Shown here: positions 37,701 through 56,834 of the stretch, in pieces | How the letters are laid out: the number at the start of each line of letters is the position of its first letter | How positions within the stretch are numbered: the stretch's first letter is position 1 | Origin: Bacteroidales bacterium | GTDB lineage: Bacteria; Bacteroidota; Bacteroidia; Bacteroidales; JAADGE01 | Reading direction: 5' to 3' | DNA: 64,000 bases | Assembly: GCA_021648725.1 (NCBI GenBank) | Contig: JAKISF010000001.1 | Location: forward strand, 62,001 to 126,000 | Translations under genes and position numbers: made by a program | Notes under the pieces: model-generated | What the model saw: the letters and a program-made list of their open reading frames with translations, nothing else | Told to the model about the DNA's origin: nothing | Database searches by the model: none

Positions 37701-40700
37701 CCTTCAACATTCGGAGGAACAGGCTATTGGGAGATTGTAGGCGGCGGCAGCGGAACAATAACTGCTCCGAGCACACAATATAATACAACAGTAACCGGAA
37801 TACCGAACGGAGTAACAACGACCTTACGTTGGAATGTAGATAACGGTACATGTACAGATAATATTGAAGTAACCGTAACTAATAATAATTTCAGTATAGA
37901 TGCCGGAGCAGCTCAAACAATATGTTCTTCAAATGCTACAATGAACGGTGATTCTCCCGGAACCGGAACCGGATATTGGACATTAGTATCAGGCTCCGGA
38001 ATTTTTAGTAATTCTTTGGCTAATAATACAACTGTTTCAGGCGTAGGACAGGGAACTAATTTGTATAGTTGGACAGTTACACGCGGAGTTTGTACAAATT
38101 CAGATAATGTAACTATTATAAACAGTTCACCGAGTACGGCACAGATTACAGGACCGGTTATAACGGAAACCTGTGACGGAACAATAAGTTTAACTGCAAA
38201 TATGCCGTCACCGTATTATGCGGATAATCAGTATTGGCAAATTGTAAGCGGAGGCGGAACATTTAATAATCCTTCGACAAGTTTTACAATGGATGTCACA
38301 AATATGAATCCCGGAACTAATCTTTTCCAATGGACTATTGAAAGAGGAATTTGTCCTTCAAGTACGGATGTTATTACTATAGTTAATAATGAGGTAACAG
38401 CTGTTGCAGGAGGTAACCAAATAATATGTAGTGATAATACATTCTTAAATGCAACAGATCCTACCGTAATTTATCCTAATCAAGGAATAGGGTATTGGAC
38501 TAACTTAAGTAGTAACAGTGCATTAATTACAAATTCTTTATTACAAAATACTGCGGTAAGTAATTTACCTATCGGTACTACAACTTTCCAGTGGACAGTT
38601 GAATTAGGAAGTTGTACAGCAAATGATTTATCACAAATAACTAACAGCTCGGTAACGGCAACTGCAAACAATCAAACAGGCTGTGACGGAGTATTTACTT
38701 TAGACGGGAATGATCCTTCAACATTTGCAGGTACAGGTTATTGGCAAGTTATTGCAGGAAGCGGAACAATTACTGTTCCGAGTACACAATATAATACAAC
38801 AATTACAGGTGTTGCATATAATGCTACATCAGCGTTACGTTGGACGGTTGATAACGGAACATGCTCAAACAGTGTCGATATTACAGTTGAAAATACCGGA
38901 TTCCCAATTAGTGCAGGTCCTGATGTAACTCAATGTAGTGATACATATACATTTAGTGCCGATGATGCTGCTCCGGGAACAGGATATTGGACTTTAGTAG
39001 GCGGCGGAGGTACTATTTCAAATTTAAGCCAATTTGATGCAGTTGTTTCCGGATTACCACAAGGAAGTAATGTTTTCAGATGGACTGTAACAAGAGGTTC
39101 TTGTACAAACTTTGATGAGATAACAGTTGAAAATACAAATCCTGATGTAGCATTAATTACTGCACCCGGACCGACAAACAGAGAAATCTGTTCAAATTCA
39201 GTTTCGATTCAAGCAAATGTTCCGGCATTCGGAACAGGACAATGGTCTGTTAGTTCAGGAACAGCAACGTTTGTTGATGATACTAACTTCTCAACAGTTG
39301 CAAACGGTTTAGCTCCCGGTTCCAATACTTTAACTTGGACAATCTCAAACGGTTCGTGTACAAGTTCGGCAGATTTAATTATAACTAACAGTGAAGTTGC
39401 TTCAGAGGCAGGTCCTAATCAGATTTTATGTGCTGATGCTACTGTTCTTAATGCTCTTAATGTTAGTACAACCTATCCTTTCCAAGGAGTAGGGCATTGG
39501 ACAAATGTAAGTAGTAACGGTGCCGTAATTACGAATTCTTTAGCAGAGAATACAGCTGTAAGTAATCTGCCGGTAGGAACAACAACTTTTATGTGGACTG
39601 TTGAAAACAGTATATGTTCAACAAATGATATAGTGCTTATTTCGAATAATACAGTAACAGCAACAGCTCTTGATGCACAAACTTGTAATTCTGATATACT
39701 GTCATTAACCGGAAATACTCCCGGCCCGGGAGAAACAGGAACATGGACATGTTTCACTGCGGGTGTTACATTTGATGATTCAAATGTTTATAATACAGCT
39801 GCTCATAATTTAGGAGTCGGTATTAACAATTTTGTTTGGACTATAAATAATGCAGATTGCTCAACTGATGCAAATATTGTTGTTACCTCAATTAATCCTC
39901 TTGCTGATGCAGGACCAGATCAAAATAATTTATGTGATAACTTTACATTTATGGGTGCTGTCAATCCGACACCTGGAACAGGTGTTTGGTCTGTTCTTTC
40001 AGGTTTGGGAACATTTGCCGATGCTTCTGATAATGTAACTTATGTCTCCGGTATTCAACAAGGAATTAATACATACAGATGGACTGTTACAGAAAGTGGC
40101 TGTGTTCGAACTTCTGATGTTACAATTATTAACAACTTACCATCGGTAGGGGCAGGCTCTGACCAATCAACATGTAATAATAACGTTACATTGTCAGGTA
40201 CAAATCCGGGTGGCGGAGAGTCCGGTGTCTGGAATCAAATTGCCGGTATTACTGCAATAATTACAAACAGTGTTCAATTTAATACAACAGTTACCGGCTT
40301 GTCAAACGGAGCAAATATTTTTGAATGGACTATTTCAAATGCTTTATGTAGTGCAAGTGATGAAGTTACAATAACATTCAACGAAGTAATTGCAGATGCA
40401 GGTCTTGATAATTCTACTTGTAACGGAACATATGCTCTTATGGCAGTTGATCCTTCTCCGGGAACGGGTTATTGGGAAGCTGTCGGTGCCGGAACATTCT
40501 CAGATATATCTATGTTTAATTCAAATGTAACAGGTTTAAATAACGGACCCAATACTTTAAGATGGCATCAATCTTATGCAGGATGTTCAGACTATGATGA
40601 TGTAGTTATAACTAATAATGAAGTTTCCGTTAATGCCGGTTTAGACCAAGCATTATGTACAGATAATACAATATTGGTAGGAAATAATCCGGGAGCAACC

Positions 40701-43700
40701 GGCTCAGGAAATTGGACTCGTTCAGGCGGAAGCGGAACAATTACAATCCCGAGTTTTTACAATTCTCCCGTAACAGGTTTAAGTAAAGGGATAAATATAT
40801 TTACATGGACAATAACTGACGGACCTTGTAGTAACTCAGACGAGGTTATTATAAATAACGATGAAATAACCGATGTTAATGCAGGGGTAGATCAAAATGT
40901 TTGTGATACTTATGCAACTTTGGCGGCACTTGCTCCGCAATCCGGTGAATCCGGATATTGGACAGTTGCAGGTGGCACAGCCGTATTTAATAATTCAGAT
41001 TCTTATACAACAGATGTTACAGGTTTAGTTCAAGGAGACAACAGATTAGTCTGGACTTTAACTAACGGAATCTGTAATGCTTCTGATACAGTTGTTGTTA
41101 CAAATAATTCTCCGACTGTTGCATTGGTTTCTCCTGATGCTGAGATATGCAGTAATATTTATACATTAGTAGGTAATATACCGGGAGGAGGAGAATCCGG
41201 GATTTGGACTAAAGAATTTGGTGCATCTGCAACAATTGTTAATCCTACATCTAACATTACTACAGCACTTTCAATAGGTGCGGGTTCTAATACTTTCAGG
41301 TGGACAATATCTAATGCATTATGTGATTCTTATGATGATATTGTTATTACAAATAATACAATAACAACTGATGCAGGTTTAGATGCTTCATTATGTACAG
41401 ATACAACGGTATTATCTGCTGATAATCCTGCTCCGGGAATCGGGCTGTGGACGGTCGTAAATTCAGCAGGAACACCGATATTTGATAATGCTTCTGCTTA
41501 TAACACAATTGTAAGAAATCTTGCAAACGGCTCTAATATATTCAAATGGACAGCTACAAAAGGCGGTTGTTCAGCTTGGGATATTGTTACTATTTCAAAC
41601 GATATTCCTACAACAGCTGATGCAGGTCCGGACGAAACCGTATGTGACGGAACTGTTAATTTGAAGGCAAATAATCCTTCTGTAGGAACAGGTGTTTGGA
41701 CAAGGTTAGGAGGTGCGGGTGTAATTGCAAATCCAAGTAATTATAATACACTTGTAACAGGTTTAAGCTCAGGCGGAAATACTTTCAGGTGGACAATTAC
41801 CGAAGGTATGTGTGAATCATACAGTGATGTATTAATTACAAATGAACTTGTATATGCATCGGCAGGAATGGATGATAATATTTGCGGTAACTCTTACGGT
41901 CCGTTAAACGGTAATCAACCGGGAGCAGGCGAAACAGGAATTTGGACTGTAACAGGCGGTACAGGAATTTTTGCAAATCCGACTTTATATAATACAAGTA
42001 TAAGCGGTTTATCTCAAAGCGAAAATGTATTAACTTGGACAGTTACAAGAGGTTCATGTTCAAATTCTGCAAATGTAAGTATTTTTGATAATACCCCTTC
42101 TCCTGCTTCTGTCAGCAATGACCAAGAAGTTTGTGATGATTTTACTGTAATTGCGGGTAATCCGCCGACAACCGGTGTAGGAGTATGGTCGGTTGCGGCA
42201 GGTAGCGGAGATTTTGATAACTCTCTTGCAAATACTACAACTGTCAGAAATATAGGCCCTGATATTAATATTTTCAGATGGACAATTACAAACGGTACAT
42301 GTACGAATGCAGCTGATATTACTGTAACAAATAATTCTGTAACAGCTGTAGTAGGCGACAGTATATTTGTTTGCGGAACTGATGCATACTTAAACGGTAA
42401 TGAACCGACAGCAGGACAAACAGGAGTTTGGACAAGAACTGCCGGAACAGGTATTATTGTGAACAGTACATTATATAATACTGCTGTTACCAACTTAAAT
42501 GTAGGTATCAATAAATTCAGATGGTCAATAAGTAACGGAACTTGTAGTGCTTATGCAGATTTAGTTGTTACTAATAATTTATATGATGCTACAGCAAGTG
42601 TTGCAGGACCGACTGTAATTTGTGTTGATTCTGCTGATTTACTCGGCAATATTCCGATACAAGGTAGTACAGGACATTGGGAAGTATTTGCAGGTGGTGG
42701 TGTGTTTGATGATTTTACCAGCCCGACAGCAAGAATAAATAATTTAAATAAAGGAGAAAATACTTTAAGATGGTTTATAACAAAAGCAGGATGTTCAAAC
42801 TTTGCAGATGTCTCGATTACTAATAATATGGTAAGTGCATTAGCCGGAGCTGATGTTATAACATGCGGAAACGATGCTAATTTATCTGCGAATGAATTAT
42901 TGCCGGCTGAAAACGGTTTGTGGACATTGGTTGCAGGTACTGGTACAATTCTTACTCCCTCTAATAATGAGACAATTATAACAGGACAAAGCTCAGGTGT
43001 AAGTGTTTACAGATGGACTGTTTGGGGCAACGGATGTATGGATGATGATATTGTACAAGTAAATGAGAATTCATTCTTAACAGAAGCAGGACCTGCTCAA
43101 ACTGTTTGTAATACAGATGCAACTCTTACAGGACAAGATCCGACACCGGGAACAGGTATTTGGACAACAGGTTCAGGAGTTACGATAAATACACCCACGA
43201 ATTATATAACAACAGTTACGGGATTACAAGATAATTCTCCTCATACATTTAGATGGACAGTAAGTAAAAACGGTTGTTCGTCTTGGGACGAGGTAGTTAT
43301 TACAAATAACTTAGTTCATGCTTATGCAGGAACAGACCAGTCTGTTTGTTTTTCAAATGCTGTTTTAGGTGCTCAAAACCCTGTTGCAGGAAACGGACTT
43401 TGGAATATAACATCCGGTTCAGGTATAATTACGACACCGAGCTATTATGCTTCTACAGTTACAGGTTTAAATGCAGGTACAATTACATTAACTTGGACTG
43501 TAAGTCACGAAAATTGCACAGATGCCGATAATATGATTATTATTAATAATATGGTAGAAGCAACTGCAGGTGCAAATCAAGCAGTTTGTGCAGATTTTAC
43601 TAATTTAACGGGAGATCAAGCACAAGCCGGAGGATACGGTATATGGACAACTGCCGGAGGACCGGGCATCGTTCAAACTCCGTCAGCATTTAATACATTA

Positions 43701-45974
43701 GTAACAGGCTTACAAAGAGGTGTAAATACTTTCCGTTGGACTGTTTATGAAAATTCATGTGACAACGGAGGAGATTTAGTACAAGTTATTAATAATACAT
43801 TTGATGCATTTGCAGGTTTAGATCAAACTTTAAATCCGCTTCAAACAAATACATATTTCAATGCTGAATTGTTAGCAAATCAAACAGGACAATGGTCAAT
43901 ATTATCCGGTAGCGGAAATATACATACTGACACAAGTCCTACATCTTATGTTTACAATATGCCTACAGGTACTAATATATTTACTTGGACAGTACATAAT
44001 AATGTTACAGGATGTAATGATGACGATGATGTTGCTATTATTGTTGCTAATTTTGTACCGTATGCAGGGGAAGATCAAGTTGTTTGTGTTGACACAGCTA
44101 AATTAAATGCAAGGGTTGAAACAGGTGCAAGTTCTCATACATGGTCAATTGTTAGCGGCGGCGGAGTGTTTGATGATATCTATGATTCGAATACAGTAGT
44201 AAGAGGGATTAATCACGGAGCAAATGTTTACAGATGGACGGTTACTTTTATCGGTTATTCAAATTATGATGATGTTGTTATTTTCAATGATTCAATATTT
44301 GTAAGTGCCGGTGATGATGTTGTTACATGTGACCGTGAGCACATTATGAATGCTCAACAGATTTTAGATCCGGACAGTGTTTGGTGGTCTCCGGTCGGAA
44401 TAGGAGGAGGTACAATTGTTACCAATACAGCTTGGAATACGCATATAACAGGTTTGGAGCCAGGAGACAGCTATTTTGAGTGGTATGTAAGTAACGGAAA
44501 TTGTATATCTCGTGATACAGTAATGTTACATTATAATTTACCGCCGATTGCTCAATTTGAAACTGATCCGACAGAATTCTGTGCACCTGCCTTAGTTACA
44601 ATTAACAATACATCAACTGCTTATGGCGGCTATAATATACCGACTGAATTCCATTGGGTAATTGAAGATTTTGCTATGCCGAACACGTACGATGTAAATG
44701 ATGATGTATTATATACATTTACAAATACGGCGGAGTGGGATTCAATATACACCATAAGATTAGTTGCAATTGATACATTTACAATGTGTACAGATACATT
44801 CTATTCAACTGTAACTGCATCAGCAGGACCCAAGGTTGAGTTTGAGGTAAGACCGAATGAACCGCAAAGAATTCCTAATGCAATCTTTACATTCCAAAAT
44901 AAGAGTGCAACTGATTTGATTTCTTATGAATGGGATTTCGGAAATGCTGATAACAGATATGATACATACTATGTAGGTTCTTTCGATTATGAATATCAAA
45001 TTGCAGGTACTTATGTTGTTACATTAGAAGGAGTAAGCGGAGGACAATGTACAGGAACTTATACAGATACTGTTGTAGTACTTCCTGCTTGTCCGTTCTC
45101 TTGGAATGAGGGCAGTACAGTAGCGGAAGGATGTCAAGAATTAACGGTTGAGTTCTATAATGATGTTTACTACGCAGATAATCAGAGCTTTACAAAATGG
45201 CATTTCTACGGACCTAATGATGATGTACCTGCCGGTGTGGACAGAGATACTTCGACTTTTGTAAATGACCCTGTTTATACTTATCCTGAACCGGGGAATT
45301 ATCATCCGTATATTACGGCATGGAATGCATCATGCGGTTCAGAAACAATGCCTTATTATACAAGAGTTGATACTGTAATAGTTTATACAAAACCGATTGT
45401 TGATTTTGATGTTGCTCCGAGATTAATTATGTTGCCCGATCAATTATTAACATGTTTTAATTATTCTGAATATGGTGACAGGTATTTCTGGAACTTCGGA
45501 GATTCTATTACAGCCGATAATTATCTTGAATTCCCGCAACATCAATATACTGAACCGGGAGCATATGATATTTCACTGGCTGTTTGGACAGTAAATGATT
45601 GCTTTGCCTCGGATACATTATATAATATTGTATATGTTGAAGAAGAAGGATCAATTGAGTTTCCGAATGCGTTTACACCTAGTCCGAACGGTTCTAACGG
45701 AGGTGTTTATCCTTGCGGAGATAAATATACTGTGGATAAAGATAATTTAAATGATGTATTTTATCCGAAACAAAGCGGTGTTGTAACTTACAATCTTGAA
45801 ATTTATAACAGATGGGGAGAAAAAATCTTTGTCAGTGATGATTTATGTGTAGGTTGGGACGGCTATGTTAAAGGAGTGTTAGCACCGCAAGATGTTTATG
45901 TCTGGAAAGTATCCGTAATTTATAAAAACGGTGAACCGGAAAGAAAATACGGAAGTGTTACTTTATTGAGATAA
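28707..45974 (+). CDS. Giant T9SS-exported repeat protein (5755 residues), probable surface adhesin
   Basis: A single uninterrupted frame of 17.3 kb. A signal peptide (1-20, ending LLSAQ) is followed by three cadherin-like units (21-722) with EF-hand-like loops. Two further Ig/cadherin-like domains run to about 928. Then come 51 tandem domains of about 85 residues (929-5280), PKD-like domains (5281-5648) and a type B T9SS sorting domain (5649-5755) with the FPNAFTP and YNRWGEKIF signatures. The protein should cross the outer membrane by T9SS and stay on the surface or be released. By size and layout it resembles gliding or attachment adhesins such as SprB, but its repeats are not SprB repeats. 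Thr, Asn, Gly and Val dominate. It ends at a strong terminator and has no operon partner. Confidence 0.92.
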   Translation: MKKYLILTLFISLGYLLSAQTLPTVNNETVSTLEDNDKVFVVGDFPSYFDADGDPFTDIRIRGLESVGILYYDADGDNIIDAGEDVALWDVILVADIPRLKFRPNPDENGVGYDSFDFQVNDGNDGYSAIRTMTIDVTPVNDEPSFTAGANQTVLEDAGPQNVPNWATAISVGPANEAGQTPSFNVSNNNNGLFSAQPAIDAAGNLTYTSAANASGFATVTVSVSDDGGIANGGDDTSPGQNFTITITAVNDLPTGADNTVSCFENAGVTFAAAHFGYADNDGDAFAQIRVTTVPGLGTLWIDTDNDGTVNGAEVPLASGNVVLIADINASLLKYIPLPGENGSPYTTWDFEVHDGTVYSATSYTMTIDVLPVNSEPSFIIGADQVVNEDAGAQNVVGWATSISAGAADEEPPIQTLTFFVSNNNNGLFSVQPGVDATTGNLTYTPAANIFGVATVTIYLTDDGGTANGGDDTSPSQNFTITVNSVNDAPTSTDNSVNVFENSVLTLVTAHFNYSDVESDPFTQIETTTVPGLGTLWIDTNSDGIINGGEVPLAPGNIVPIADISGNRLKFIPNPNENGSPYTTFDFKVHDGIEFSTLSYTMTINVLAVNSEPSFTKGADQVVNEDAGAQTVAGWATAIDPGGAGEGGQVLTFNVSNSLPALFSVQPAVDAVTGDLTYTPAPNANGVATVSIYLTDDGGTANGGDDTSPTQTFTITVNPVNDVPVVTANNPLNINEGDINQLISTALLEVTDVDNTPAEIEYTITTVPAAGTLKLSGLPLGLNDTYTQADINANALTYSHDGSEGTPDSYFFTVIDGAGGSIGSTQFIINIAPVNDAPIFTSSPVTTGDQLVFYIYNITTTDAEGDPLVIAPVTIPAWLALVDNGDGTATLSGTPPGGTPLNNPITISVSDGIAPPVTQSWNLIISSSVTADAGPDDITCNNNEYTLNATAAPVGYTGTWTVIGGSGVFANANLPNTLVTGLDNGPAPFNTNTFRWTLSNGIPAEDVWDDVVITNNTVVASVTDINNVCGTNAILQADNALNPGETGLWTVEGAPIPLPVIANPNNRTTAVSGLQYNVNQFRWTLTKGTCSDFAIMNVNVIEVYATAGGPAEICSEPFTILGNDPTILGGTGVWTVGAGSGVFANANAPTTTVTGSHQDVQNEYVWTVTVNGCSAQASVFVENNIPTTAVITTPNPSTSCDGIYTISAVPADATDPNETGYWTTVTPGVVITNANLATTGVTGLQEGANLFTWHITNGTCPESTADVTINYFFPPTVDAGPDAIICTDDYNLAATPLDAGETGLWTFTTGGMGSTIINPTSNTTQVINLQSGLNVLQWTVSHDICSSDDVVEITNMSVDAIISTTDPLISCTDPSPLITANIPSSQDIANPATPATGSWSVLSGGSIVDNPLSWNTTVSNLDAGNNDYIWTITNGTCTDTDTITVINSIPTQAYAGKDTIVCSTSLPNLNGNNYNSLVEIGFWRRIAGNATITDISLANTSVTNLDYYCTPWTPNWWTNVAAVNVFEWVIRRGTCESTDQVSVMNGLPETIDAGLDQTVCDNVVNLDALDEASCADDHWWEQLPDVGNYIDPLTGAFIPDNDLNMPFNVHVDNIQDGMTQFVWHKRNNFFDSLGNPIQCELTDTVEITSLGLVEDVQAGPEDATCENWYQLNATNPSTIFTAGPPFDVVSGQWTLIFGAGNFDDDTYYNTTVRNMAAYDNIYRWTVTNLTKGCILTDDVYIHSARPSNATAGPDDVTCNDFAVLSSNVPVRYTSAYWTVAVGGSTIIQNSCTGFTCDAIATNIADSLNIYIWHVVNEYTGGFGGYDAANPLTCEVIDSTVIIYRGVTADAGVDIYECGDFTQLNANDPAWNTGVWTGSGTFDDSGTNTSTLFNDIVRGLTPGKNTFTWTISNETCSASDNLVVFGLLPPTPYANVDQTICSGTVNLNGNNVANTWTVVDPVPPNPVWQEAIATGYWTSTNPLVTFTNASNFNTTASGISMQTEDAFIWHSVNNFTDYVAGITRTCELVDTMLVYNNSVTSTAGSDIFECGIDLVANSFNLNAVPAVAPMSGVWSQISGPASTILTPASPTTLVTNVFQDNDYIYQWTVSATRNTVTCTAADNMLVEVRIPSNSVVNPSTLEVCVNQAPLVGNIPLSGIGTWSSASGSPGTIDDPSSSVTFVDLIQNGVSQWQWTIDRQGCTSNDIITVTNNTVTADADLALTDPNATDICFPEYVLNATDPDIFNVALPNATGIWLANLGTTTFDNNTVYNTTVRNLSSALPNILTWTITKGSCIESSQLTINNNEFFVDADVNENPNLLETCDGNITLAGEQPGVGGTGFWEIIIGGGTFVNTTLYNTVVITVPKPFSRYVWHVNRIGCNATDTVRVDNNQVFSNAGFDQTVCNNFATLNGGIPNAGELGQWTVTNGGGTVTTPSAYNSGVTNMAQGQNTFVWTISKGNCSAFSSVEIINNEPSDFNVEPDREVCGINDAITVNPGAIGTGVWTISQGGAFTAIVDNTATNTNVTDLQPGLNTFVWTATNGTCTKVGDVTLTNNMVISDAGVPQFVCADSTNLLAAEPSINYPFQGTGIWTVVTGSSTVVTVTAYNSQVISLDPGLNTFRWNMSLGTCTDFDDADVTNNAVQANASNQTVCTDAATFDGNNPGSSNGLWTLVGSSGTPTITTPTLNISTVTGLGTGVNTFRWLVNNAAGCADSIDIQIDNGEFITSAGPDQSLCSTTATMGAQNHGVGYNGYWYVVAGGATVTNSAQFDSPVTGLTPGNNVFRWVVNSVDCMAFDEVIIQNNLPTDAVIVTPIVTNREVCTNSAAVEGTNPVFGIGVWTVSTSILGTYFTNSTSYQTVINDLRPVNNVLTWTISNGTCSSVDQITIVNNEVASVAGSAQTLCFDNTSLAATDPSTIYPNQGTGYWTNISGNVAVITNSLAWNTGVTNLPLGTTTFRWTVEKGICSVFDEVIIANNSATASATNQSDCNSVFTLNGNDPSTFGGTGYWEIVGGGSGTITAPSTQYNTTVTGIPNGVTTTLRWNVDNGTCTDNIEVTVTNNNFSIDAGAAQTICSSNATMNGDSPGTGTGYWTLVSGSGIFSNSLANNTTVSGVGQGTNLYSWTVTRGVCTNSDNVTIINSSPSTAQITGPVITETCDGTISLTANMPSPYYADNQYWQIVSGGGTFNNPSTSFTMDVTNMNPGTNLFQWTIERGICPSSTDVITIVNNEVTAVAGGNQIICSDNTFLNATDPTVIYPNQGIGYWTNLSSNSALITNSLLQNTAVSNLPIGTTTFQWTVELGSCTANDLSQITNSSVTATANNQTGCDGVFTLDGNDPSTFAGTGYWQVIAGSGTITVPSTQYNTTITGVAYNATSALRWTVDNGTCSNSVDITVENTGFPISAGPDVTQCSDTYTFSADDAAPGTGYWTLVGGGGTISNLSQFDAVVSGLPQGSNVFRWTVTRGSCTNFDEITVENTNPDVALITAPGPTNREICSNSVSIQANVPAFGTGQWSVSSGTATFVDDTNFSTVANGLAPGSNTLTWTISNGSCTSSADLIITNSEVASEAGPNQILCADATVLNALNVSTTYPFQGVGHWTNVSSNGAVITNSLAENTAVSNLPVGTTTFMWTVENSICSTNDIVLISNNTVTATALDAQTCNSDILSLTGNTPGPGETGTWTCFTAGVTFDDSNVYNTAAHNLGVGINNFVWTINNADCSTDANIVVTSINPLADAGPDQNNLCDNFTFMGAVNPTPGTGVWSVLSGLGTFADASDNVTYVSGIQQGINTYRWTVTESGCVRTSDVTIINNLPSVGAGSDQSTCNNNVTLSGTNPGGGESGVWNQIAGITAIITNSVQFNTTVTGLSNGANIFEWTISNALCSASDEVTITFNEVIADAGLDNSTCNGTYALMAVDPSPGTGYWEAVGAGTFSDISMFNSNVTGLNNGPNTLRWHQSYAGCSDYDDVVITNNEVSVNAGLDQALCTDNTILVGNNPGATGSGNWTRSGGSGTITIPSFYNSPVTGLSKGINIFTWTITDGPCSNSDEVIINNDEITDVNAGVDQNVCDTYATLAALAPQSGESGYWTVAGGTAVFNNSDSYTTDVTGLVQGDNRLVWTLTNGICNASDTVVVTNNSPTVALVSPDAEICSNIYTLVGNIPGGGESGIWTKEFGASATIVNPTSNITTALSIGAGSNTFRWTISNALCDSYDDIVITNNTITTDAGLDASLCTDTTVLSADNPAPGIGLWTVVNSAGTPIFDNASAYNTIVRNLANGSNIFKWTATKGGCSAWDIVTISNDIPTTADAGPDETVCDGTVNLKANNPSVGTGVWTRLGGAGVIANPSNYNTLVTGLSSGGNTFRWTITEGMCESYSDVLITNELVYASAGMDDNICGNSYGPLNGNQPGAGETGIWTVTGGTGIFANPTLYNTSISGLSQSENVLTWTVTRGSCSNSANVSIFDNTPSPASVSNDQEVCDDFTVIAGNPPTTGVGVWSVAAGSGDFDNSLANTTTVRNIGPDINIFRWTITNGTCTNAADITVTNNSVTAVVGDSIFVCGTDAYLNGNEPTAGQTGVWTRTAGTGIIVNSTLYNTAVTNLNVGINKFRWSISNGTCSAYADLVVTNNLYDATASVAGPTVICVDSADLLGNIPIQGSTGHWEVFAGGGVFDDFTSPTARINNLNKGENTLRWFITKAGCSNFADVSITNNMVSALAGADVITCGNDANLSANELLPAENGLWTLVAGTGTILTPSNNETIITGQSSGVSVYRWTVWGNGCMDDDIVQVNENSFLTEAGPAQTVCNTDATLTGQDPTPGTGIWTTGSGVTINTPTNYITTVTGLQDNSPHTFRWTVSKNGCSSWDEVVITNNLVHAYAGTDQSVCFSNAVLGAQNPVAGNGLWNITSGSGIITTPSYYASTVTGLNAGTITLTWTVSHENCTDADNMIIINNMVEATAGANQAVCADFTNLTGDQAQAGGYGIWTTAGGPGIVQTPSAFNTLVTGLQRGVNTFRWTVYENSCDNGGDLVQVINNTFDAFAGLDQTLNPLQTNTYFNAELLANQTGQWSILSGSGNIHTDTSPTSYVYNMPTGTNIFTWTVHNNVTGCNDDDDVAIIVANFVPYAGEDQVVCVDTAKLNARVETGASSHTWSIVSGGGVFDDIYDSNTVVRGINHGANVYRWTVTFIGYSNYDDVVIFNDSIFVSAGDDVVTCDREHIMNAQQILDPDSVWWSPVGIGGGTIVTNTAWNTHITGLEPGDSYFEWYVSNGNCISRDTVMLHYNLPPIAQFETDPTEFCAPALVTINNTSTAYGGYNIPTEFHWVIEDFAMPNTYDVNDDVLYTFTNTAEWDSIYTIRLVAIDTFTMCTDTFYSTVTASAGPKVEFEVRPNEPQRIPNAIFTFQNKSATDLISYEWDFGNADNRYDTYYVGSFDYEYQIAGTYVVTLEGVSGGQCTGTYTDTVVVLPACPFSWNEGSTVAEGCQELTVEFYNDVYYADNQSFTKWHFYGPNDDVPAGVDRDTSTFVNDPVYTYPEPGNYHPYITAWNASCGSETMPYYTRVDTVIVYTKPIVDFDVAPRLIMLPDQLLTCFNYSEYGDRYFWNFGDSITADNYLEFPQHQYTEPGAYDISLAVWTVNDCFASDTLYNIVYVEEEGSIEFPNAFTPSPNGSNGGVYPCGDKYTVDKDNLNDVFYPKQSGVVTYNLEIYNRWGEKIFVSDDLCVGWDGYVKGVLAPQDVYVWKVSVIYKNGEPERKYGSVTLLR
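28767..30872 (+). repeat. Three cadherin-like tandem units with EF-hand-like loops
   Basis: Three units of 232, 236 and 234 residues start at 28767, 29463 and 30171. Each holds one domain with an acidic 12-residue loop, then one with the VNEDAG and DDGG-x-ANGGDDTSP motifs, closing in a PVND-type linker. Loops lie at 28923-28958 (DADGDNIIDAGE), 29613-29648 (DTDNDGTVNGAE) and 30321-30356 (DTNSDGIINGGE). Positions 1, 3, 5 and 12 fit calcium-binding EF-hand loops except for Asn3 in the third. Calcium-dependent stiffening is inferred from cadherin-like proteins. Confidence 0.75.
31491..44546 (+). repeat. Array of 51 tandem ~85-residue domains in the giant protein
   Basis: By eye I count 51 copies over 4352 residues. 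A consensus copy opens with AG-x-D-Q-x-x-C, continues with L-x-x-NxPxxGxTGxWT, then G-x-F/I, YNTxVxGL, G-x-N-x-FxWT and a G-x-C, and closes VxITNNxV. Most copies have exactly two cysteines, one near residue 9 and one near 65, suggesting one intradomain disulfide. Lengths vary most in the first 16 copies and settle at 80-86 residues afterwards. I do not recognise the unit as a named domain; an immunoglobulin-like beta sandwich is likely. Confidence 0.85.
36138..40145 (+). repeat. Four-fold super-repeat of about 1 kb, each of four domains
   Basis: Units at 36138-37127, 37128-38138, 38139-39149 and 39150-40145 are 330, 337, 337 and 332 residues. Each contains four distinct domain types in the same order. 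Type A has no AG opening and usually carries REVC or a similar motif. Type B carries a YP[NF]QG-x-G motif after its DP or similar. Type C has a short opening such as TATANNQT and usually GNDPSTF. Type D opens with an AGP-like motif and has GTGYWTLV or similar. Type B of units 2-4 shares VTNLPLGTTTFRW-like wording. DNA identity is clearly lower than protein similarity, so the duplication looks old. Confidence 0.75.
44547..45650 (+). other. PKD-like domains before the sorting signal
   Basis: About four PKD-like domains of 85-100 residues lie between the repeat array and the T9SS domain. PKD hallmarks are visible in copies 2 and 4: SYEWDFGNAD with a later YEYQIAGTYVVTLE, and RYFWNFGDS with HQYTEPGAYDISL. 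Copies 1 and 3 are more diverged. PKD domains commonly form a rigid stalk near the surface anchor. Confidence 0.75.
45651..45971 (+). other. T9SS type B C-terminal sorting domain
   Basis: The last 107 residues match the gliding-motility-associated C-terminal domain: FPNAFTPSPNG, a LNDVFYP block, LEIYNRWGEKIF, GWDGYVKG and a final VWKVSVIYKNGE followed by GSVTLLR. Known type B domains route SprB-like proteins through the type IX machinery and usually need a PorP/SprF-like partner, which is not encoded next to this gene. Confidence 0.9.
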
Positions 45975-46046: not shown

Positions 46047-49000
46047 TTATAATTCCCTGACTAATGCTCCCCATTTTTTGTCAATTACAAAATTATGTTT
46101 TAGATAATAGTTTCCGAATAAGAAATGAGCTTTTATTGTTTTGATTCCTTGTGCTTTCATTCTTGTGAAAAAATCTTCCATCATTGCCGAGCCTATTCCT
46201 TTACCGTGTAATGGAGATGTAACAGCCATTCCGTCAATTAATACAACATTTTCATCTAATTCTTTATAGCATAAACCACCGATAACACGTTCATTTGAGT
46301 CTGTAAGAATATAGTGTCTATCCGGTTTTGAAATTTCTTTAGGATAATTCTCTTTAAAAAATAATTTATAAAGTTCACCTACTTCAAACGCTTCAAGAGG
46401 TTCTCTCATAGTGTATTCAGTATTGTTTTTGTCTTTTAAAATTGAACGGACGATAACATGTTCGTCTTTTTTTTCTCCTATTGTTAAAATATCGACTTTT
46501 TGTTTTGTTTTAATTCCCGGGAAAACCATTTTTCCGAAAATATTCTTTTCTGAACTGTTCTTTAATACAGATTGTAAATCAGAAAGTTCTGTTAGTTGTA
46601 TTGGTAAATGATTTATATTTTCTGACATTTTATTTATCAGTATATCGAAATATGAAACAACTTCTTTGTCTGAATCTTTAAAAAATGTTTCTCTGTAAAA
46701 TTTATATCTGATAATTTCCGGAAATTTCCCTAAAGCATATAAATCAAACAGTTCTGCTATGGTTTGCTCTTTAGCTGTGATACTTGCTTTTTTACTTTTC
46801 TTAACCCAATCAGAATATCTGTCAATTGCATTAAAAAGAGCTAAGGGTAAATAAATTCTTCCTTTAAAATCTTTTAAATATTCTTTTAATGTTTCATATA
46901 TTTCAAGTTCATTTTCTTTTAAAGCAGGTTTGTTTTCGTATTCTGAAATAAGCTTTTTAAAAAGAAGTCTTGATTTTTTTTCTCCCAAAGCTTCAACACA
47001 CGCATGATATATCCATCTTGTTTTTATATGTTTTTTTAATAATGGATAATGTGCTGTTGCTTTTTTATAAAAGTTTTTTAACATTGCCGAAATTAAAGAG
47101 CTGATTTGTGCATTTTTATTCCAACCGGAAAGAGAAATAACTACTGAATTATCAGAGAAGTCATTTTCAGGAAGTGCAACATTTCCGGGAGATACAAAAC
47201 CGGGCATTATTTCTTGATTGCTGTTGTGCCAAACTCTGAAGAATGCACTCATTGAGCGGATATATATTTTTCTCCACGTATTTGCTTGTTCTATTTGTCC
47301 GAATGCTTGCATTTCTGCAATAGCTCTTATTTTGTCCCATGCCGTAAGCATACTTAAATAACCCGAAATAATAATTTTTTCAGAAGGATTACTACATCCG
47401 AATATTGTAAGGGAAGGACTGTCAAAGGGGTATCCGCCTATTGCAATCATTCTGTATAAAGTTTCGAGTCCTTTTTGAGTTTTTAATTTTTCATCAATTG
47501 CAATATGCAAATCGTAATGTTTACCTTTTTTTGTATTAATGCTCATTCTGTAATGCTTTGTGTTTCTGTAACTTTTAACACGTGAAACCCAAATGTTATT
47601 TTTTGCAATTAATTTAAGATCGAAATTGTATTCGTCATAAATTAAAATAAGTGCTTGTTTAAGAGTATTACTTGAAGCTAATTTTGTTGTCAGTTCTTTT
47701 TTATTATCTTCTGAAATTCCTTCGTCAAAAACTAATAAAGATTTCCATTCTTTTTCAGTGTAAATTTTTGATGTTTTGCTTATTTGTTTTTTGAATCCTT
47801 CAAATAATTCATAAAAATATTTATGTGCTTTTTTTGATAAAACAGGTTCATTTTTTAACAGCATCCATGAAGCAAATTCGGCTCTGATTGATTTGTAATA
47901 TTTCGGATGATTTATTCCGAAGTTCAGAAGCAGCCTGAAAATTGTGTCGAATTGTTTTCTTGTTTGTTTGTCGGCAGGCCATTTCATTTCATTTCTGTAA
48001 TGAAACATTCGTTTTCTTAAGCTGTCAAAATGTTGAAAAGCAAATGTGTTTTTTGCTAAAGTTCTTATTGACTGCTCATTAAGAAATGTTTTGCCTGAAT
48101 TAATAAATGCAGGAAGAAGTTCTGAGAAGTTAGGCTCCGGATCTTTTGTTAATAAAATTCGATATGCACTAACTCTGATTTCTTCATCTTTATGACAGGC
48201 TAAGGCTTCTAATCTTCTGCGAATAATTTCTGCTTTATTTTTATCAGATTGGGTAAATATTTTTTCAATTTGTTTAAGGCTGATTAACGATGTTTTAGTG
48301 TCAGAGTGTAATGTTTCTGATAGTAAGGTGTTTAGAAAGGTAAGGTCAGCATCAATAATATTTAAAATTTGAGGTATTTCTCCCGGGTGGTAAGTTCTTA
48401 TATCTTTTTTCGGAACACGTAATTGAGGAGAAATATTCTTTAAAGGTAAATCAAAGCTTACCTTACAAGGTGAAAAAGATATAAGTTCAGGGTTTCCTGC
48501 CCAAAGTTTGGGTTGTCTGACAATTATTCCCAAATCAACTTTTTTATCATATATTTTATATTCTAAATCTCCGATTAAATAAATATTTTCTTTATAAGAT
48601 TTTTGTATTCTTAATTTTTGTTTAGTTACTTTATTGTAGATGCCTTCTTTATCAGAAATTATATCAGTTTCTAATATTCCGATATCTCTGTAGAACCATC
48701 TGGGAATTACAATTTCAAAATTTTTCTTTTTAATAAGAATAAAATCTTTTTCATATAACTTACTTATTAATTCTGAAAAGTTTTTTTCTATATTCTTTCT
48801 TTTAAATGAACCTTTTGCGGTTATCTCCCCTTTTTCTTTTAAAAATTCTCTGTTTGCTATGCTGAAATTTATTACGCGTTCATACGGTGCCGAATCTTTA
48901 TTTGCTGTTGTAATTATTTGGTGGAAATATTCATTAATATTATCATCTTTACTTCCGGAAGTTAATACCGGATCTTCAAAATCGGGAACAATTAAAAGCA

Positions 49001-50621
49001 CATTATACGGTTTTCCGTCACCGATTAAAAATGTTTGCTTAATCCCGGGGACTCCTGCAAATTTCTTTTCTATCATTCCGGGAGCAATTGTTTGTCCTTT
49101 GTTATTTTTGTAAATGTCTTTTACTCTGTCAATAATCTCATGATGACCGTTATTGTCAATTTTAAAAATATCGCCTGTTGATAACCAATAATCTTCTTCG
49201 TGAGGATAAGGAATTATGTCTTCCGGTCCTGCATCTTCTAAATATTTTGCCAGATAATGACTTTTAATTTCAAGTTCACCATTTTCTTTTAATCTTGTTT
49301 TTGTTCCCGGTAAAGGAATCCCTGTTGAGTTTTCTTTGTAGTCATAAGAAGGTGTCATCGTAATTCCTCCGGTTGCTTCTGTCATTCCGAAACCGCTGTT
49401 TAGTGTAATTCCGTGTTTATGAAAATATCTGAATATTTTCGGGTCAAGATAACCGGCTGCTGATAAGCCCCAATGAAGATTTTTACCCGTTATGCTTTTT
49501 ATTACTTTCTGCTGTTCTTTTTCATCTTCAATTCCTTCTGTGGCTTTTATACATTTCTCATAAATTTGCCCCCAACGAATAGGAACGCTTATAAAACCTG
49601 TAGGATGCTCTTTAGGAAATAAAGATAATAAAGTTGCCGAAGACGAATTTCCTGCAAAAATATATGTGCCGCCCCAAAAAATAGTACCTGTTAATTCCAG
49701 AAATCTGCCGAATGTATGGAATAGCGGTAAATAACATATCAGTTTTTCATTTTTTCCGACTTGCGGTAATGCTGCCGCACGTGCAAATCGTTTACTGATA
49801 ATATTGTAAATTGAGAAAGAAACTCCTTTCGGCATTCCTGTACTTCCGGAAGTAAACATTGTTGTTGCAACTTGGTTTATTTTCTTCCTTTCTCTTTTAT
49901 TTAAAATTTCATCAGCTTTTTGTAACGATATTTTCTTACATTCTTTACTCAGAAAATAATCTGCATCTTTATTTTTTGCTGTATTAATGTGCGTAACAAT
50001 TATTTTAATTTTTTTGTCAATATTTTTGACTGCAGCCGTAACAATTTTTAATCTTTCTGAAGTATCAGTAATAATAATATCAATATTTAATTTCTCAATA
50101 ATATGTTTTAATATATCTTCATTAAAATGAATATTTAGGGGTGTATTAAAAATATCGTATGACAAGCAGGCTAAATCAGAAATTGCTCCTTCAATACTGT
50201 TATTCATGTATAAAGCAACTTTCGGATTTTTTTTATTTATGGAATATATAAATGCTGCTATTTCTTTTATATGATGAAAAACTTGTTTGTACGTCCATTC
50301 GACAACTCGGGGTTTTGACCGGTCTTTAAATAATATTTTTTCAGGATGCTCATCAACACGCTGTTTAATCATAGAAAGCAAACTGTATTCTGTTTTTTGA
50401 ATTATTTCAAATACTAAGTTTGCCCATTCTTCTCTTTTTTTTTGTGATTTTAAAGAACATAAAAAATTAATTTTTCCGGTATAGTTTAAAAAAATGTATA
50501 GATATTTTGTGTTAATTTTGCCTTCCAAAAGTTCTTTTTTTGCAGAACTTATAATATTTGTAGCTTCTTTATTTGTAAAGTCTTTTTTTATTATATCGGG
50601 CAAATCGTTTAACTTGTTCAT
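46047..50621 (-). CDS. Acyl-CoA synthetase-like protein fused to a helical region and a GNAT domain
   Basis: 1524 residues. Residues 80-625 form an ANL-family adenylating domain. It has the P-loop FTSGSTGMPKG (256-266), SGFGMTEATGG (409-419), STGD (481-484) and a candidate catalytic Lys603 in TAKGSFKRK. This fits long-chain fatty acid-CoA ligases. About 640-1425 is a mostly helical region, HEAT-like near 745-850, that I do not recognise. Residues about 1430-1524 are a GNAT domain with the acetyl-CoA loop LHGKGIGSAM near 1472-1481. The fusion suggests that activated acyl groups are passed to an acceptor by the same protein, but this is inference. It stands alone between two convergent or divergent neighbours. 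Confidence 0.8.
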   Translation of the reverse strand: MNKLNDLPDIIKKDFTNKEATNIISSAKKELLEGKINTKYLYIFLNYTGKINFLCSLKSQKKREEWANLVFEIIQKTEYSLLSMIKQRVDEHPEKILFKDRSKPRVVEWTYKQVFHHIKEIAAFIYSINKKNPKVALYMNNSIEGAISDLACLSYDIFNTPLNIHFNEDILKHIIEKLNIDIIITDTSERLKIVTAAVKNIDKKIKIIVTHINTAKNKDADYFLSKECKKISLQKADEILNKRERKKINQVATTMFTSGSTGMPKGVSFSIYNIISKRFARAAALPQVGKNEKLICYLPLFHTFGRFLELTGTIFWGGTYIFAGNSSSATLLSLFPKEHPTGFISVPIRWGQIYEKCIKATEGIEDEKEQQKVIKSITGKNLHWGLSAAGYLDPKIFRYFHKHGITLNSGFGMTEATGGITMTPSYDYKENSTGIPLPGTKTRLKENGELEIKSHYLAKYLEDAGPEDIIPYPHEEDYWLSTGDIFKIDNNGHHEIIDRVKDIYKNNKGQTIAPGMIEKKFAGVPGIKQTFLIGDGKPYNVLLIVPDFEDPVLTSGSKDDNINEYFHQIITTANKDSAPYERVINFSIANREFLKEKGEITAKGSFKRKNIEKNFSELISKLYEKDFILIKKKNFEIVIPRWFYRDIGILETDIISDKEGIYNKVTKQKLRIQKSYKENIYLIGDLEYKIYDKKVDLGIIVRQPKLWAGNPELISFSPCKVSFDLPLKNISPQLRVPKKDIRTYHPGEIPQILNIIDADLTFLNTLLSETLHSDTKTSLISLKQIEKIFTQSDKNKAEIIRRRLEALACHKDEEIRVSAYRILLTKDPEPNFSELLPAFINSGKTFLNEQSIRTLAKNTFAFQHFDSLRKRMFHYRNEMKWPADKQTRKQFDTIFRLLLNFGINHPKYYKSIRAEFASWMLLKNEPVLSKKAHKYFYELFEGFKKQISKTSKIYTEKEWKSLLVFDEGISEDNKKELTTKLASSNTLKQALILIYDEYNFDLKLIAKNNIWVSRVKSYRNTKHYRMSINTKKGKHYDLHIAIDEKLKTQKGLETLYRMIAIGGYPFDSPSLTIFGCSNPSEKIIISGYLSMLTAWDKIRAIAEMQAFGQIEQANTWRKIYIRSMSAFFRVWHNSNQEIMPGFVSPGNVALPENDFSDNSVVISLSGWNKNAQISSLISAMLKNFYKKATAHYPLLKKHIKTRWIYHACVEALGEKKSRLLFKKLISEYENKPALKENELEIYETLKEYLKDFKGRIYLPLALFNAIDRYSDWVKKSKKASITAKEQTIAELFDLYALGKFPEIIRYKFYRETFFKDSDKEVVSYFDILINKMSENINHLPIQLTELSDLQSVLKNSSEKNIFGKMVFPGIKTKQKVDILTIGEKKDEHVIVRSILKDKNNTEYTMREPLEAFEVGELYKLFFKENYPKEISKPDRHYILTDSNERVIGGLCYKELDENVVLIDGMAVTSPLHGKGIGSAMMEDFFTRMKAQGIKTIKAHFLFGNYYLKHNFVIDKKWGALVREL

Positions 50622-53453: not shown

Positions 53454-56400
53454 ATGTCTAACATCTCAAATATCAAATCTCAAAAAAAATATCAAGCAAA
53501 GAATCATATAAGAATAGTAACGGCAGCATCGCTTTTCGACGGGCATGATGCGGCAATTAACGTAATGCGAAGAATAATTCAAAGTACGGGAGCAGAAGTA
53601 ATTCATCTCGGACATAATCGCTCCGTACAAGAAATTGTTGACTGTGCCGTACAAGAAGATGTTCAGGCAATTGCAATAACATCCTATCAAGGCGGGCATA
53701 TTGAGTTTTTTAAATATATGAAAGATTTGCTCGAAGAAAAAGGCAGACCTGATATTAAAATTTTTGGCGGCGGCGGCGGAGTTATCCTTCCTGAAGAAAT
53801 AAAAGAACTGCAAGAATACGGTATAACAAGAATATATTCGCCCGATGACGGTAGAGAAATGGGATTGCAAGGTATGATTAACGACCTTTTGCAAAAGTCT
53901 GACTTCTCTTTTGAACTTTCTGATTACCATAGTATTGCAAATATAAAAAAGAAAGATGTAAATTCAATTGCTCGTTTAATAACTATTGCCGAATGTTGTA
54001 ATAATAAAGTTTCCGGTATTTTACAAGAAATACGAAAAATTGTAAAAACTAAAAAAATACCGGTTCTTGGAATTACAGGTACGGGAGGTTCAGGCAAATC
54101 ATCTTTGGTTGACGAGCTTGTTCGCAGATACCTTGATGATTTTAACGAAAAAACAGTTGCAATAATTTCGGTTGACCCTTCAAAACGCAAAACAGGCGGA
54201 GCATTACTCGGTGATCGTATTCGTATGAACAGTATAAACGATAAGCGTGTTTATATGCGTTCTTTGGCAACTCGTCAGGCAAATTTGGCGATGTCTCCTT
54301 TTGTTAAAGATGCGGTTGATATTGCAAAAATTGCAGATTACGATTTAATTATTCTAGAAACTTCAGGTATAGGGCAGTCTGATACTGAAATCACAGAACA
54401 CAGCGATATTGCAATGTACGTTATGACACCCGAATACGGTGCTGCAACACAGTTAGAGAAAATAGATATGCTTGATTTTGCAGATATTATTGCAGTAAAT
54501 AAATCAGATAAAAGAGGTGCAGTTGATGCAATCAGAGACGTTAAAAAACAGTATCAAAGAAATCACGAACTTTTTGATATTGAAACAGATAAAATGCCGG
54601 TTTACGGAACGGTTGCTTCGCAATTTAATGACAGCGGGGTTAATGAATTGTATTTTGCTTTAATGAAATTAATTACAGAAAAAACATCTGTTAATTTTAT
54701 CAATAAAGAAAATATAAAGGAAGTTAAACATGAAAAATTGCAAATTATTCTGCCGAAGCGAGTGAGGTATTTGTCAGAAATTTCTGAAACTATTCGTTCT
54801 TATAATGATTGGACAGAGAAGCAAGCAGAGATTGCACGAAATTTATTTGCTTACAAAACAACCTTTGAGCACCTGAAAGACCTTGAAGCATCTGAAACTA
54901 TAAAAAAACTTTATGAAGAAACAGAACTCGACCTCGACCTGCGAAACAAAAAAATCATTGAAAGCTGGGAAGAGAAAGTTGAGAATTATGCAGGAGATGA
55001 ATTTATTTACAAAGTAAGAAACAAAGAAATTAAAGTTAAAACTTTTTCTGAAAGTCTTTCGCATTTAAAAATTCCAAAAATTTCATTACCTAAATATAAA
55101 GATTGGGGCGAAATTTTAAAATGGAACTTACGTGAAAATGTTCCGGGAGAATTTCCGTATGCAGCAGGAGTTTTTCCGTTTAAACGTGAAGGAGAAGACC
55201 CTACAAGAATGTTTGCAGGCGAAGGCGGACCCGAAAGAACAAATAAACGATTTCATTACGTTTCATTCGGAATGCCTGCAAAAAGATTATCAACTGCATT
55301 CGACAGTGTAACTCTTTACGGCGAAAATCCTGACCGCAGACCCGATATTTACGGAAAAATAGGAAACTCCGGTGTTTCGATAGCTTGCCTTGATGATGCA
55401 AAAAAATTATATTCAGGTTTTGAACTTACAGATTCTGCAACTTCGGTTTCAATGACAATCAACGGACCGGCTCCTATTATGACGGCATATTTTATGAATG
55501 CCGCAATTGACCAAGAATGCGAAAAATACATTAAAGAAAACGGCTTAGAAAAAGAAATTGAAGAAAAAATAAATGCAATTTATAAAGCAGAAGGAACGCA
55601 ACGACCCAAATATCAAGGAGATTTACCCGAAGGAAATAACGGTTTGGGATTAATGCTTCTCGGTGTAACGGGAGATGAAGTTCTGCCGAAAGATGTTTAC
55701 GAAAAAATAAAAACAGAAACAATTACAAAAGTAAGAGGAACCGTTCAAGCTGATATTTTAAAAGAAGACCAAGCACAAAACACTTGCATTTATTCAACCG
55801 ATTTTTCATTGAAATTAATGGGCGATATGCAAGAATATTTCATAAATAATGGTGTCCGTAATTTTTATTCTGTTTCAATTTCAGGTTATCATATTGCCGA
55901 AGCAGGAGCAAATCCTATCAGCCAGCTTGCATTTACGCTTGCCAACGGTTTCACTTACGTGGAATATTATGTTTCCAGAGGAATGGATATTAATAAATTT
56001 GCACCGAACCTATCATTCTTTTTTTCGAACGGATTAGACCCCGAATATTCTGTTATGGGACGAGTTGCACGTTTAATTTGGGCAAAAGCAATGAAGCAAA
56101 AATATGGTGCGGACGACCGTTCGCAAAAATTAAAATATCATATCCAAACTTCCGGTCGTTCTTTACATGCACAAGAAATTGATTTTAATGATATTCGCAC
56201 AAGTTTGCAAGCACTTTATGCAATTTATGATAATTGTAACTCCTTGCATACCAATGCTTATGATGAGGCGATTACAACACCTACAGAGGAAAGTGTAAGA
56301 CGTGCAATGGCAATACAACTTATTATAAATCATGAACTTGGTTTGGCAAAAAATCAAAATCCGCTGCAAGGAGCTTTCATTATTGAAGAACTTACCGATT

Positions 56401-56834
56401 TAGTTGAAGAAGCCGTTTTAACGGAATTTGACCGCATTACTGAACGTGGCGGAGTTCTCGGAGCAATGGAAACCATGTATCAACGCAGTAAAATACAAGA
56501 AGAAAGTTTGTATTATGAAAATTTAAAACATACGGGCGAACTTCCTATTATGGGTGTAAATACTTTCTTATCATCACAAGGCTCACCAACGGTTACACCA
56601 GGTGAAGTTATAAGAGCAACTGAAGAAGAAAAAGAATATCAAATTAAAATGCTTGAACAACTTCATAAAACAAAAGAAAATAGAGCAGGGGATAGACTTG
56701 AAAGCTTAAAACAGGCATCAAAACAAAATAAAAATATTTTTGCCGAACTTATGGAAACCGCAAAAGTTTGCTCAATCGGGCAAATAACGGGAGCATTATT
56801 TCAAGTCGGTGGGCAGTATAGGAGGAATATGTAA
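53454..56834 (+). CDS. icmF: Fused isobutyryl-CoA mutase IcmF
   Basis: 1126 residues in IcmF order. A B12-binding domain (about 15-150, with the DGHDAA motif at 29-34) is followed by a MeaI-type G-protein chaperone (about 195-410, Walker [10 protein letters not shown] at 209-217), a linker and the mutase barrel (about 550-1120). IcmF interconverts isobutyryl-CoA and butyryl-CoA. Known substrate-site residues that distinguish it from methylmalonyl-CoA mutase are present: Phe587 in [10 protein letters not shown] and Gln775 in DQAQNTCIY, where MCM has Tyr and Arg. Two-subunit MCM is therefore unlikely. A -7-like TATTTTTG is present at 53402-53409. No cobalamin riboswitch is seen in the 157-base gap. 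Confidence 0.93.

Follow-up and report, generated by a model that had tools for sequence, protein, structure and literature searches.

In a 64,000-nucleotide stretch of a Bacteroidales bacterium genome (assembly GCA_021648725.1, contig JAKISF010000001.1, positions 62,001 to 126,000 of the forward strand; hereafter the window), one minus-strand gene encodes a protein of 1524 amino acids. Judged by its motifs and by structural models, the protein is a single chain composed of an AMP-forming adenylation module of the ANL superfamily, a beta domain, a helical array, a kinase fold and a GNAT domain. The open reading frame (ORF), at 46047-50621, has 1524 codons with zero interruptions, exactly where an original prediction from the letters of the DNA had placed it. 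About 40 other genomes carry the same architecture. The prediction had joined an acid-activating part and an acyltransferase part in one chain, and at both ends the signature residues are indeed conserved throughout the family. We tentatively favour a single-chain acyl-CoA ligase and N-acyltransferase, in which the helical and pseudokinase part would act as scaffold or sensor. The fusion of an acyl-CoA synthetase with a GNAT is already known as a kind, and what is new is the core between them.

Conservation of the fusion

Whole-genome searches covered the source's own phylum. A long match with 49-100% identity was present in 20 of 60 near genomes (the window's own included), two of these matches being cut by contig ends, and one further near genome held a 170-residue piece. 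The matches were distributed by kinship, with 11 of 14 genomes of the genus (12 with the piece), 6 of 7 other members of the family and 3 of 39 genomes from other families of the order. The next-best matches in the near genomes were ordinary ligases with 22-34% identity, which sets the family sharply apart. Eighteen near sequences align from end to end. A scan of contigs gave nine loci, seven with the long protein (one cut by a contig end) and two with ordinary ligases.

A profile of the middle part matched 22 of 395 genomes from the phylum. Apart from the source genome itself and a short frame of doubtful value, these are 20 genomes, referred to as the second set, which are listed in the phylum but outside the window's class and carry ORFs of 1515 to 1632 amino acids with identical domain order. 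In one other class, 24 of 197 genomes matched, five of them new and one doubtful; the new ones comprised four full ORFs (G467, G458, G462 and G487) and one split over two contigs (G481). Two short frames among the phylum matches (G218 and G518, expectation value E about 1e-4) were taken as chance. The third group (L096-L099) is the most divergent, and it has the same domain order and an unchanged Lys-x-Ser loop at motif A10. Inspection of L096 by eye showed a P-loop ending in PKA vs PKG, the same architecture and A10 loop, and a catalytic-loop Asp that is also missing. No relative was found on plasmids or viral contigs, the viral scan being one degenerate pattern, and among the relatives found the middle part was never met in a full-length frame without both ends.

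Two alignments were used for the residue counts. One, of 27 rows, holds the window protein, three of the 17 full-length near relatives, all 20 second-set sequences and three from the third group; L096, dropped by the P-loop pattern for its PKA, and the split G481 were left out. The other, of 39 rows, left out L004, L007, L011, L016 and L096. In the 27 sequences, pairwise distances of the five parts correlated with r of 0.84-0.97, and the parts are fused in every full-length relative found, a pattern to be expected if they are inherited as one unit. An assembly error as the origin of the fusion was ruled out by the near relatives and the second-set genomes with the same order.

Adenylation and acyltransferase modules

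The ANL profiles PF00501 and PF23562 both exceeded their Pfam cut-offs in the window protein. Motifs A3, A5 (TE), A7 (TGD) and A8 (DR) are intact, with T257, S258, G259, T261, G262, K265, T414, E415, D484, D498 and R499 identical in 27/27 sequences, and the P-loop predicted at 256-266 was seen at 257-266. Of the protein's 114 invariant positions, 96 fall within this module. In NCBIfam, no model reached its cut-off among the best 25 of 90, many of which were ligase models; the best was PRK06187 (150.5 bits, cut-off 476), and carboxyl_red gave 110.7 bits with a cut-off of 1300.

The A10 loop, which reads T-x-K-(mostly G)-S/T-x-K/N-R in the family, departs from the ANL standard. At the position of the canonical A10 Lys (605), all 27 sequences have Ser or Thr (Ser605 in the window protein), whereas non-fused ligases from the same or related genomes have Lys in this column in 12 of 12 cases, with loops like TNTLKLKR and TRLGKIQR; two more ligase frames at those loci, without the P-loop pattern, were left out of this set. 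Lys603 is invariant in all fusion sequences of the 27-row alignment, in 18 of 18 near relatives (window protein included) and also in L096. It had been predicted as an adenylation-motif residue, but it does not occupy the canonical place. A phmmer alignment to a bacterial carboxylic acid reductase gave an identical A10 register.

Fungal carboxylate reductases show the same variation, with Lys two residues ahead of a hydroxyl residue. The available part of a report on them gives Thr524 of NcCAR and Ser540 of AtCAR at the canonical A10 place, and states that Lys522 of NcCAR, two residues upstream of Thr524, could assume the contacts and that those enzymes are active (PMC5826065). Because active enzymes have the same arrangement, the A10 loop points to a working, unusual adenylation site, and by this analogy Lys603 is probably the functional lysine, although off the canonical place. 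The replacement limits certainty on activity, not on ANL kinship. The plan of carboxylic acid reductases (A, T, R) is not shared, as the window protein has the A-like part only, and no carrier or reductase was found in it by Pfam. FadD-like ANL synthetases with AMP-binding_C_3 have in common with the fusion the core, the C-terminal subdomain and motifs A3, A5, A7 and A8, but they carry the canonical A10 Lys, and the fusion has 900 extra residues.

Acetate is a doubtful substrate for two reasons. The position of a Trp in acetyl-CoA synthetases falls at Gly412 of the window protein, and of 7 genomes examined 3 have AcsA, above cut-off, as a separate gene. In the genome of the window itself no AcsA exceeds the cut-off, so this is not decisive.

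At the other end of the chain, PF00583 was above its cut-off, and VIA-align showed a GNAT superfamily fold, with Z 15.2 to Tetrahymena Gcn5 and a root mean square deviation (rmsd) of 2.2 over 122 residues. The coenzyme A (CoA) loop, expected near 1472-1481, was seen at about 1472-1477. Compared with the consensus R/Q-x-x-G-x-G/A, it reads HGKGIG in the window protein, H/Q-G-K/R-G-I-G in the near clade and RRKGIS in the second clade, with variation in the first and last consensus letters. Both the loop and the fold are otherwise standard for a GNAT. The domain is predicted to bind acyl-CoA and transfer the acyl group.

The middle part and its kinase fold

Pfam gave zero assignment for residues ~640-1420 of the window protein, consistent with the ~785 unassigned residues predicted between the ends. 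In the window protein and 39 relatives, the middle gave only scattered sub-threshold Pfam matches, and profile searches of the PDB with it returned nothing significant (best E 0.28 and 0.16). The MST1/MST2 kinases, matched in the PDB profile search over the alphaC-beta5 stretch with E 0.23-0.68, were below significance and not counted.

An AlphaFold2 model of residues 630-1524, built from 18 sequences, had a mean predicted local distance difference test score (pLDDT) of 82.9 and a predicted template modelling score (pTM) of 0.52. From N- to C-terminus it showed a beta-rich part at 631-740, helices at ~758-984, three strands and a single helix, a pair of strands and a pair of helices, and then further helices ahead of the GNAT. 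The predicted helical spacer thus gave way to a beta domain, a helical array of ~230 residues and a kinase fold with a helical extension. In Foldseek against the PDB, Vps34, PI3K-C2a and mTOR led for this model (E from 1.8e-4, probability 1.00 for the leaders). In these proteins, as in the window protein, a helical solenoid is followed by a kinase; because the template modelling (TM) score was 0.29 or less and the rmsd 17-24, only this fold succession, and not the packing, appears to be common to them.

Residues 985-1372 were also modelled alone from 39 sequences (scores in the table), and this model had 94 Foldseek matches with E no greater than 0.001. Human PRPK led (E 2.9e-5, TM to target 0.60), followed by Bud32, FGFR2, CDC7 and KIT; PI3K/mTOR therefore come first for the long model and PRPK/Bud32 for the isolated domain, in Foldseek and in VIA-align. 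The latter gave Z 14.1 for PRPK (rmsd 3.6, 196 residues), 13.7 for Bud32 and 10-11 for Rio1, PKR, JAK2, corramycin phosphotransferase and LicA, and among the VIA-align matches listed 50 of 50 were kinases or kinase-like phosphotransferases. The elements follow the order of a protein-kinase-like fold, namely N-lobe beta1-3, alphaC and beta4-5, then alphaD, alphaE and the catalytic loop. For the model, a protein-kinase fold at residues ~1005-1240 is established. The original prediction, that the middle matches nothing known, holds for sequence libraries and fails for the fold; the structure prediction it had proposed as a check gave a kinase fold, which none of the sequence searches recognised.

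The catalytic residues of an active protein kinase are missing from all or most of the 39 sequences, in a register set by motif and element order. No column of strand beta3 (1035-1042) has Lys/Arg in more than 4 of 39, position 1142 of the catalytic loop is Asp in 6, Phe in 9 and Asn in 8, and the columns expected for the DFG Asp (1161-1165) contain zero Asp. The window loop 1140-1148 is PGFVSPGNV, and the pattern PGxxSPxNV resembles the HGDLxxxN motif of kinases. With the beta3 Lys and the DFG Asp gone and the catalytic-loop Asp kept in only 6 of 39, the domain looks like a pseudokinase. Compared with Bud32/PRPK, the kinase topology is common, but those three residues are absent and there is no significant sequence similarity. 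An active atypical kinase, which would make the chain trifunctional, is very unlikely. It would agree with Asn1147 (kept in 36/39), with Asp1154 in 35/39, located in the loop between two strands after the catalytic loop, with the Asp or Asn found at 1142 and with the atypical chemistry of some pseudokinases described in the available part of the literature; however, it would have to work with no conserved beta3 Lys and no Asp at 1161-1165, and Asp1154 itself is replaced by Arg in the three aligned third-group sequences (L097-L099). In a word search, the terms GNAT, acetyltransferase and AMP-binding did not occur in the available part of a review on families of bacterial pseudokinases (PMC12599244).

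Table. Layout of the fusion protein in the window
Feature	Residues	Window positions	Strand	Basis
Whole ORF	1524 aa	46047..50621	-	ORF listing and translation; own-genome match at 100%
ANL adenylation core	85-500	49122..50369	-	PF00501 (AMP-binding) 86-450, E 4.8e-50; motif residues identical 27/27
A3 P-loop	255-266	49824..49859	-	T257 S258 G259 T261 G262 K265 in 27/27
ANL C-terminal subdomain	501-630	48732..49121	-	PF23562 (AMP-binding_C_3) 508-625, E 1.6e-12
A10 loop	601-608	48798..48821	-	K603, R608 invariant 27/27; Ser/Thr at 605 replaces canonical Lys
Beta domain	631-740	48402..48731	-	AlphaFold model of 630-1524, high pLDDT there
Helical array (HEAT-like)	758-984	47670..48350	-	All-helical in model; Foldseek match to helical and kinase part of Vps34/PI3K-C2a
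Kinase-fold domain	~985-1230	46932..47669	-	pLDDT 89.1, pTM 0.86 (model of 985-1372); PRPK/Bud32 in Foldseek and VIA-align
Degenerate kinase catalytic loop	1140-1148	47178..47204	-	Asn1147 kept 36/39; Asp position 1142 = Phe
Helical extension after kinase fold	1231-1372	46506..46931	-	Secondary structure in both models
GNAT domain	~1375-1524	46050..46499	-	PF00583 (Acetyltransf_1) 1424-1499, E 1.8e-9; VIA-align Z 15.2 to Tetrahymena Gcn5

Possible function and gene neighbourhood

In the reading that we favour, the ANL module would activate a carboxylic acid with ATP to form acyl-AMP. No carrier (PP-binding) domain was found in the Pfam scan of the window protein, and because none stands beside the ANL module the acyl group would be handed to CoA. 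The GNAT could then bind acyl- or acetyl-CoA and acylate an amine, for which the lysine or N-terminus of a protein would be the simplest candidate. The helical array and the kinase-fold domain would form a catalytically dead scaffold, which may dock the acceptor or sense a nucleotide or metabolite, and would tether both enzymes. The invariant ANL motifs, the kept CoA loop of the GNAT and the conservation of the fusion support a ligase joined to an acyltransferase. A narrower version, rather unlikely in our estimate, is a self-fuelled protein acylase, in which the ANL module would make acyl-CoA in cis for the Gcn5-like GNAT while the solenoid and pseudokinase present a protein substrate. The eukaryotic pseudo-PI3K scaffold Tra1 beside Gcn5 is a reminiscent arrangement, by analogy and not by homology.

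Several points weigh against the ligase and acyltransferase reading. Both activities are predicted ones, and the kinase-motif register rests on motif and element order, not on residue-level superposition. The acceptor side of the GNAT differs between clades (HFLFGNYYLKHNF vs GFFRPEYFYKFGF), suggesting that acceptors may differ or that the GNAT may be regulatory. Moreover, the neighbours reveal no acceptor, either at the window locus or in the clade linked to citrate synthase.

That link was the yield of the gene-neighbourhood comparison which had been proposed with the original prediction. Of the 20 second-set loci fetched, 13 (L063-L067, L070-L075, L078 and L079) have a citrate synthase gene upstream of the fusion gene and on its strand, and in 10 of these the gap is 21-393 bases; the identity of the synthase comes from Pfam on one of the loci and from mutual blastp for the rest. 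In 9 of the 13, an amine-oxidase-type gene precedes citrate synthase, mostly together with a squalene/phytoene synthase pair. In G121 and G110 the adjoining citrate synthase is the genome's only one. Six second-set loci also have a downstream string in common, whose genes look by eye like CTP synthase, a gene for a secreted protein, purN, purH and mreB. Citrate synthase was rejected as a general partner, the link being confined to the second set and the sole copy of the window genome lying on another contig.

Two regulatory readings, a self-braked ligase and a ligase-gated GNAT, match the evidence nearly as well as acceptor acylation. A self-braked ligase is possible, yet doubtful. Here the ligase would be the working enzyme and the GNAT a built-in brake, by analogy with Pat and AcuA, which act in trans on acetyl-CoA synthetase; it would acetylate the ligase, with Lys603 as the obvious target, at high acyl- or acetyl-CoA, and the pseudokinase part would sense a signal. 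The available part of one report describes that GNAT acetylation of the active-site Lys blocks adenylation by AMP-forming ligases (PMC4053389). The invariance of Lys603 fits such a brake, as does the upstream citrate synthase, a link to the acyl-CoA/tricarboxylic acid cycle node. However, all sequences carry Ser/Thr at the place of the canonical acetylation target, so the shifted Lys603 would have to serve instead, and citrate synthase is elsewhere in the window genome.

The ligase-gated GNAT, which we consider unlikely, would be a protein acetyltransferase with the ligase part as its acyl-CoA or ATP/AMP sensor. This resembles type I Pat, in which, according to the available part of its description, a catalytically inactive NDP-forming synthetase domain of ~700 aa regulates a C-terminal GNAT of ~200 aa (PMC8556138). 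Pat/PatZ and the window protein indeed share the plan of a large N-terminal acyl-CoA synthetase domain and a C-terminal GNAT. But the synthetase of the window protein is AMP-forming (PF00501, ANL), with a helical array and a kinase fold between it and the GNAT, and whereas the Pat domain is inactive, ANL active-site motifs are kept here as the best-conserved part of the protein. A mere sensor is disfavoured because such conservation would be needless for it.

The available part of a review of bacterial GNATs describes five types, none with an ANL domain, and among GNAT protein acetyltransferases of bacteria the fusion would be a further architecture next to those five. No fusion of an AMP-forming ligase to a GNAT through a kinase-fold domain was found in the open literature searched (subscription papers and preprints were outside this scope). 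Within the open literature searched, this would be the first such architecture where the acyl donor could arise in the same chain, and the first with a kinase-fold pseudoenzyme between two acyl-metabolism enzymes. It also shows cleanly, in a bacterial family, the shift of the A10 Lys known from fungal carboxylate reductases, and it offers single-residue tests at Lys603, Ser605, Asn1147 and the GNAT CoA loop.

At the window locus the gene stands alone: it converges with the gene of a repeat protein of 5755 residues and diverges from that of glutamine synthetase. Farther along are genes for a purine nucleoside phosphorylase and for a B12-dependent mutase that is a fusion protein. The repeat protein (28707-45974, plus strand) has a signal-like N-terminus, dozens of short repeats and a C-terminal domain that, by eye, looks like a gliding-motility/type IX sorting domain; a relative of it occurs at the same place in several near genomes. 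The mutase (53454-56834, plus strand), three genes from the fusion gene, is a 1126-aa fused B12-binding, MeaB GTPase and methylmalonyl-CoA-mutase-type protein, likely of the isobutyryl-CoA mutase IcmF type.

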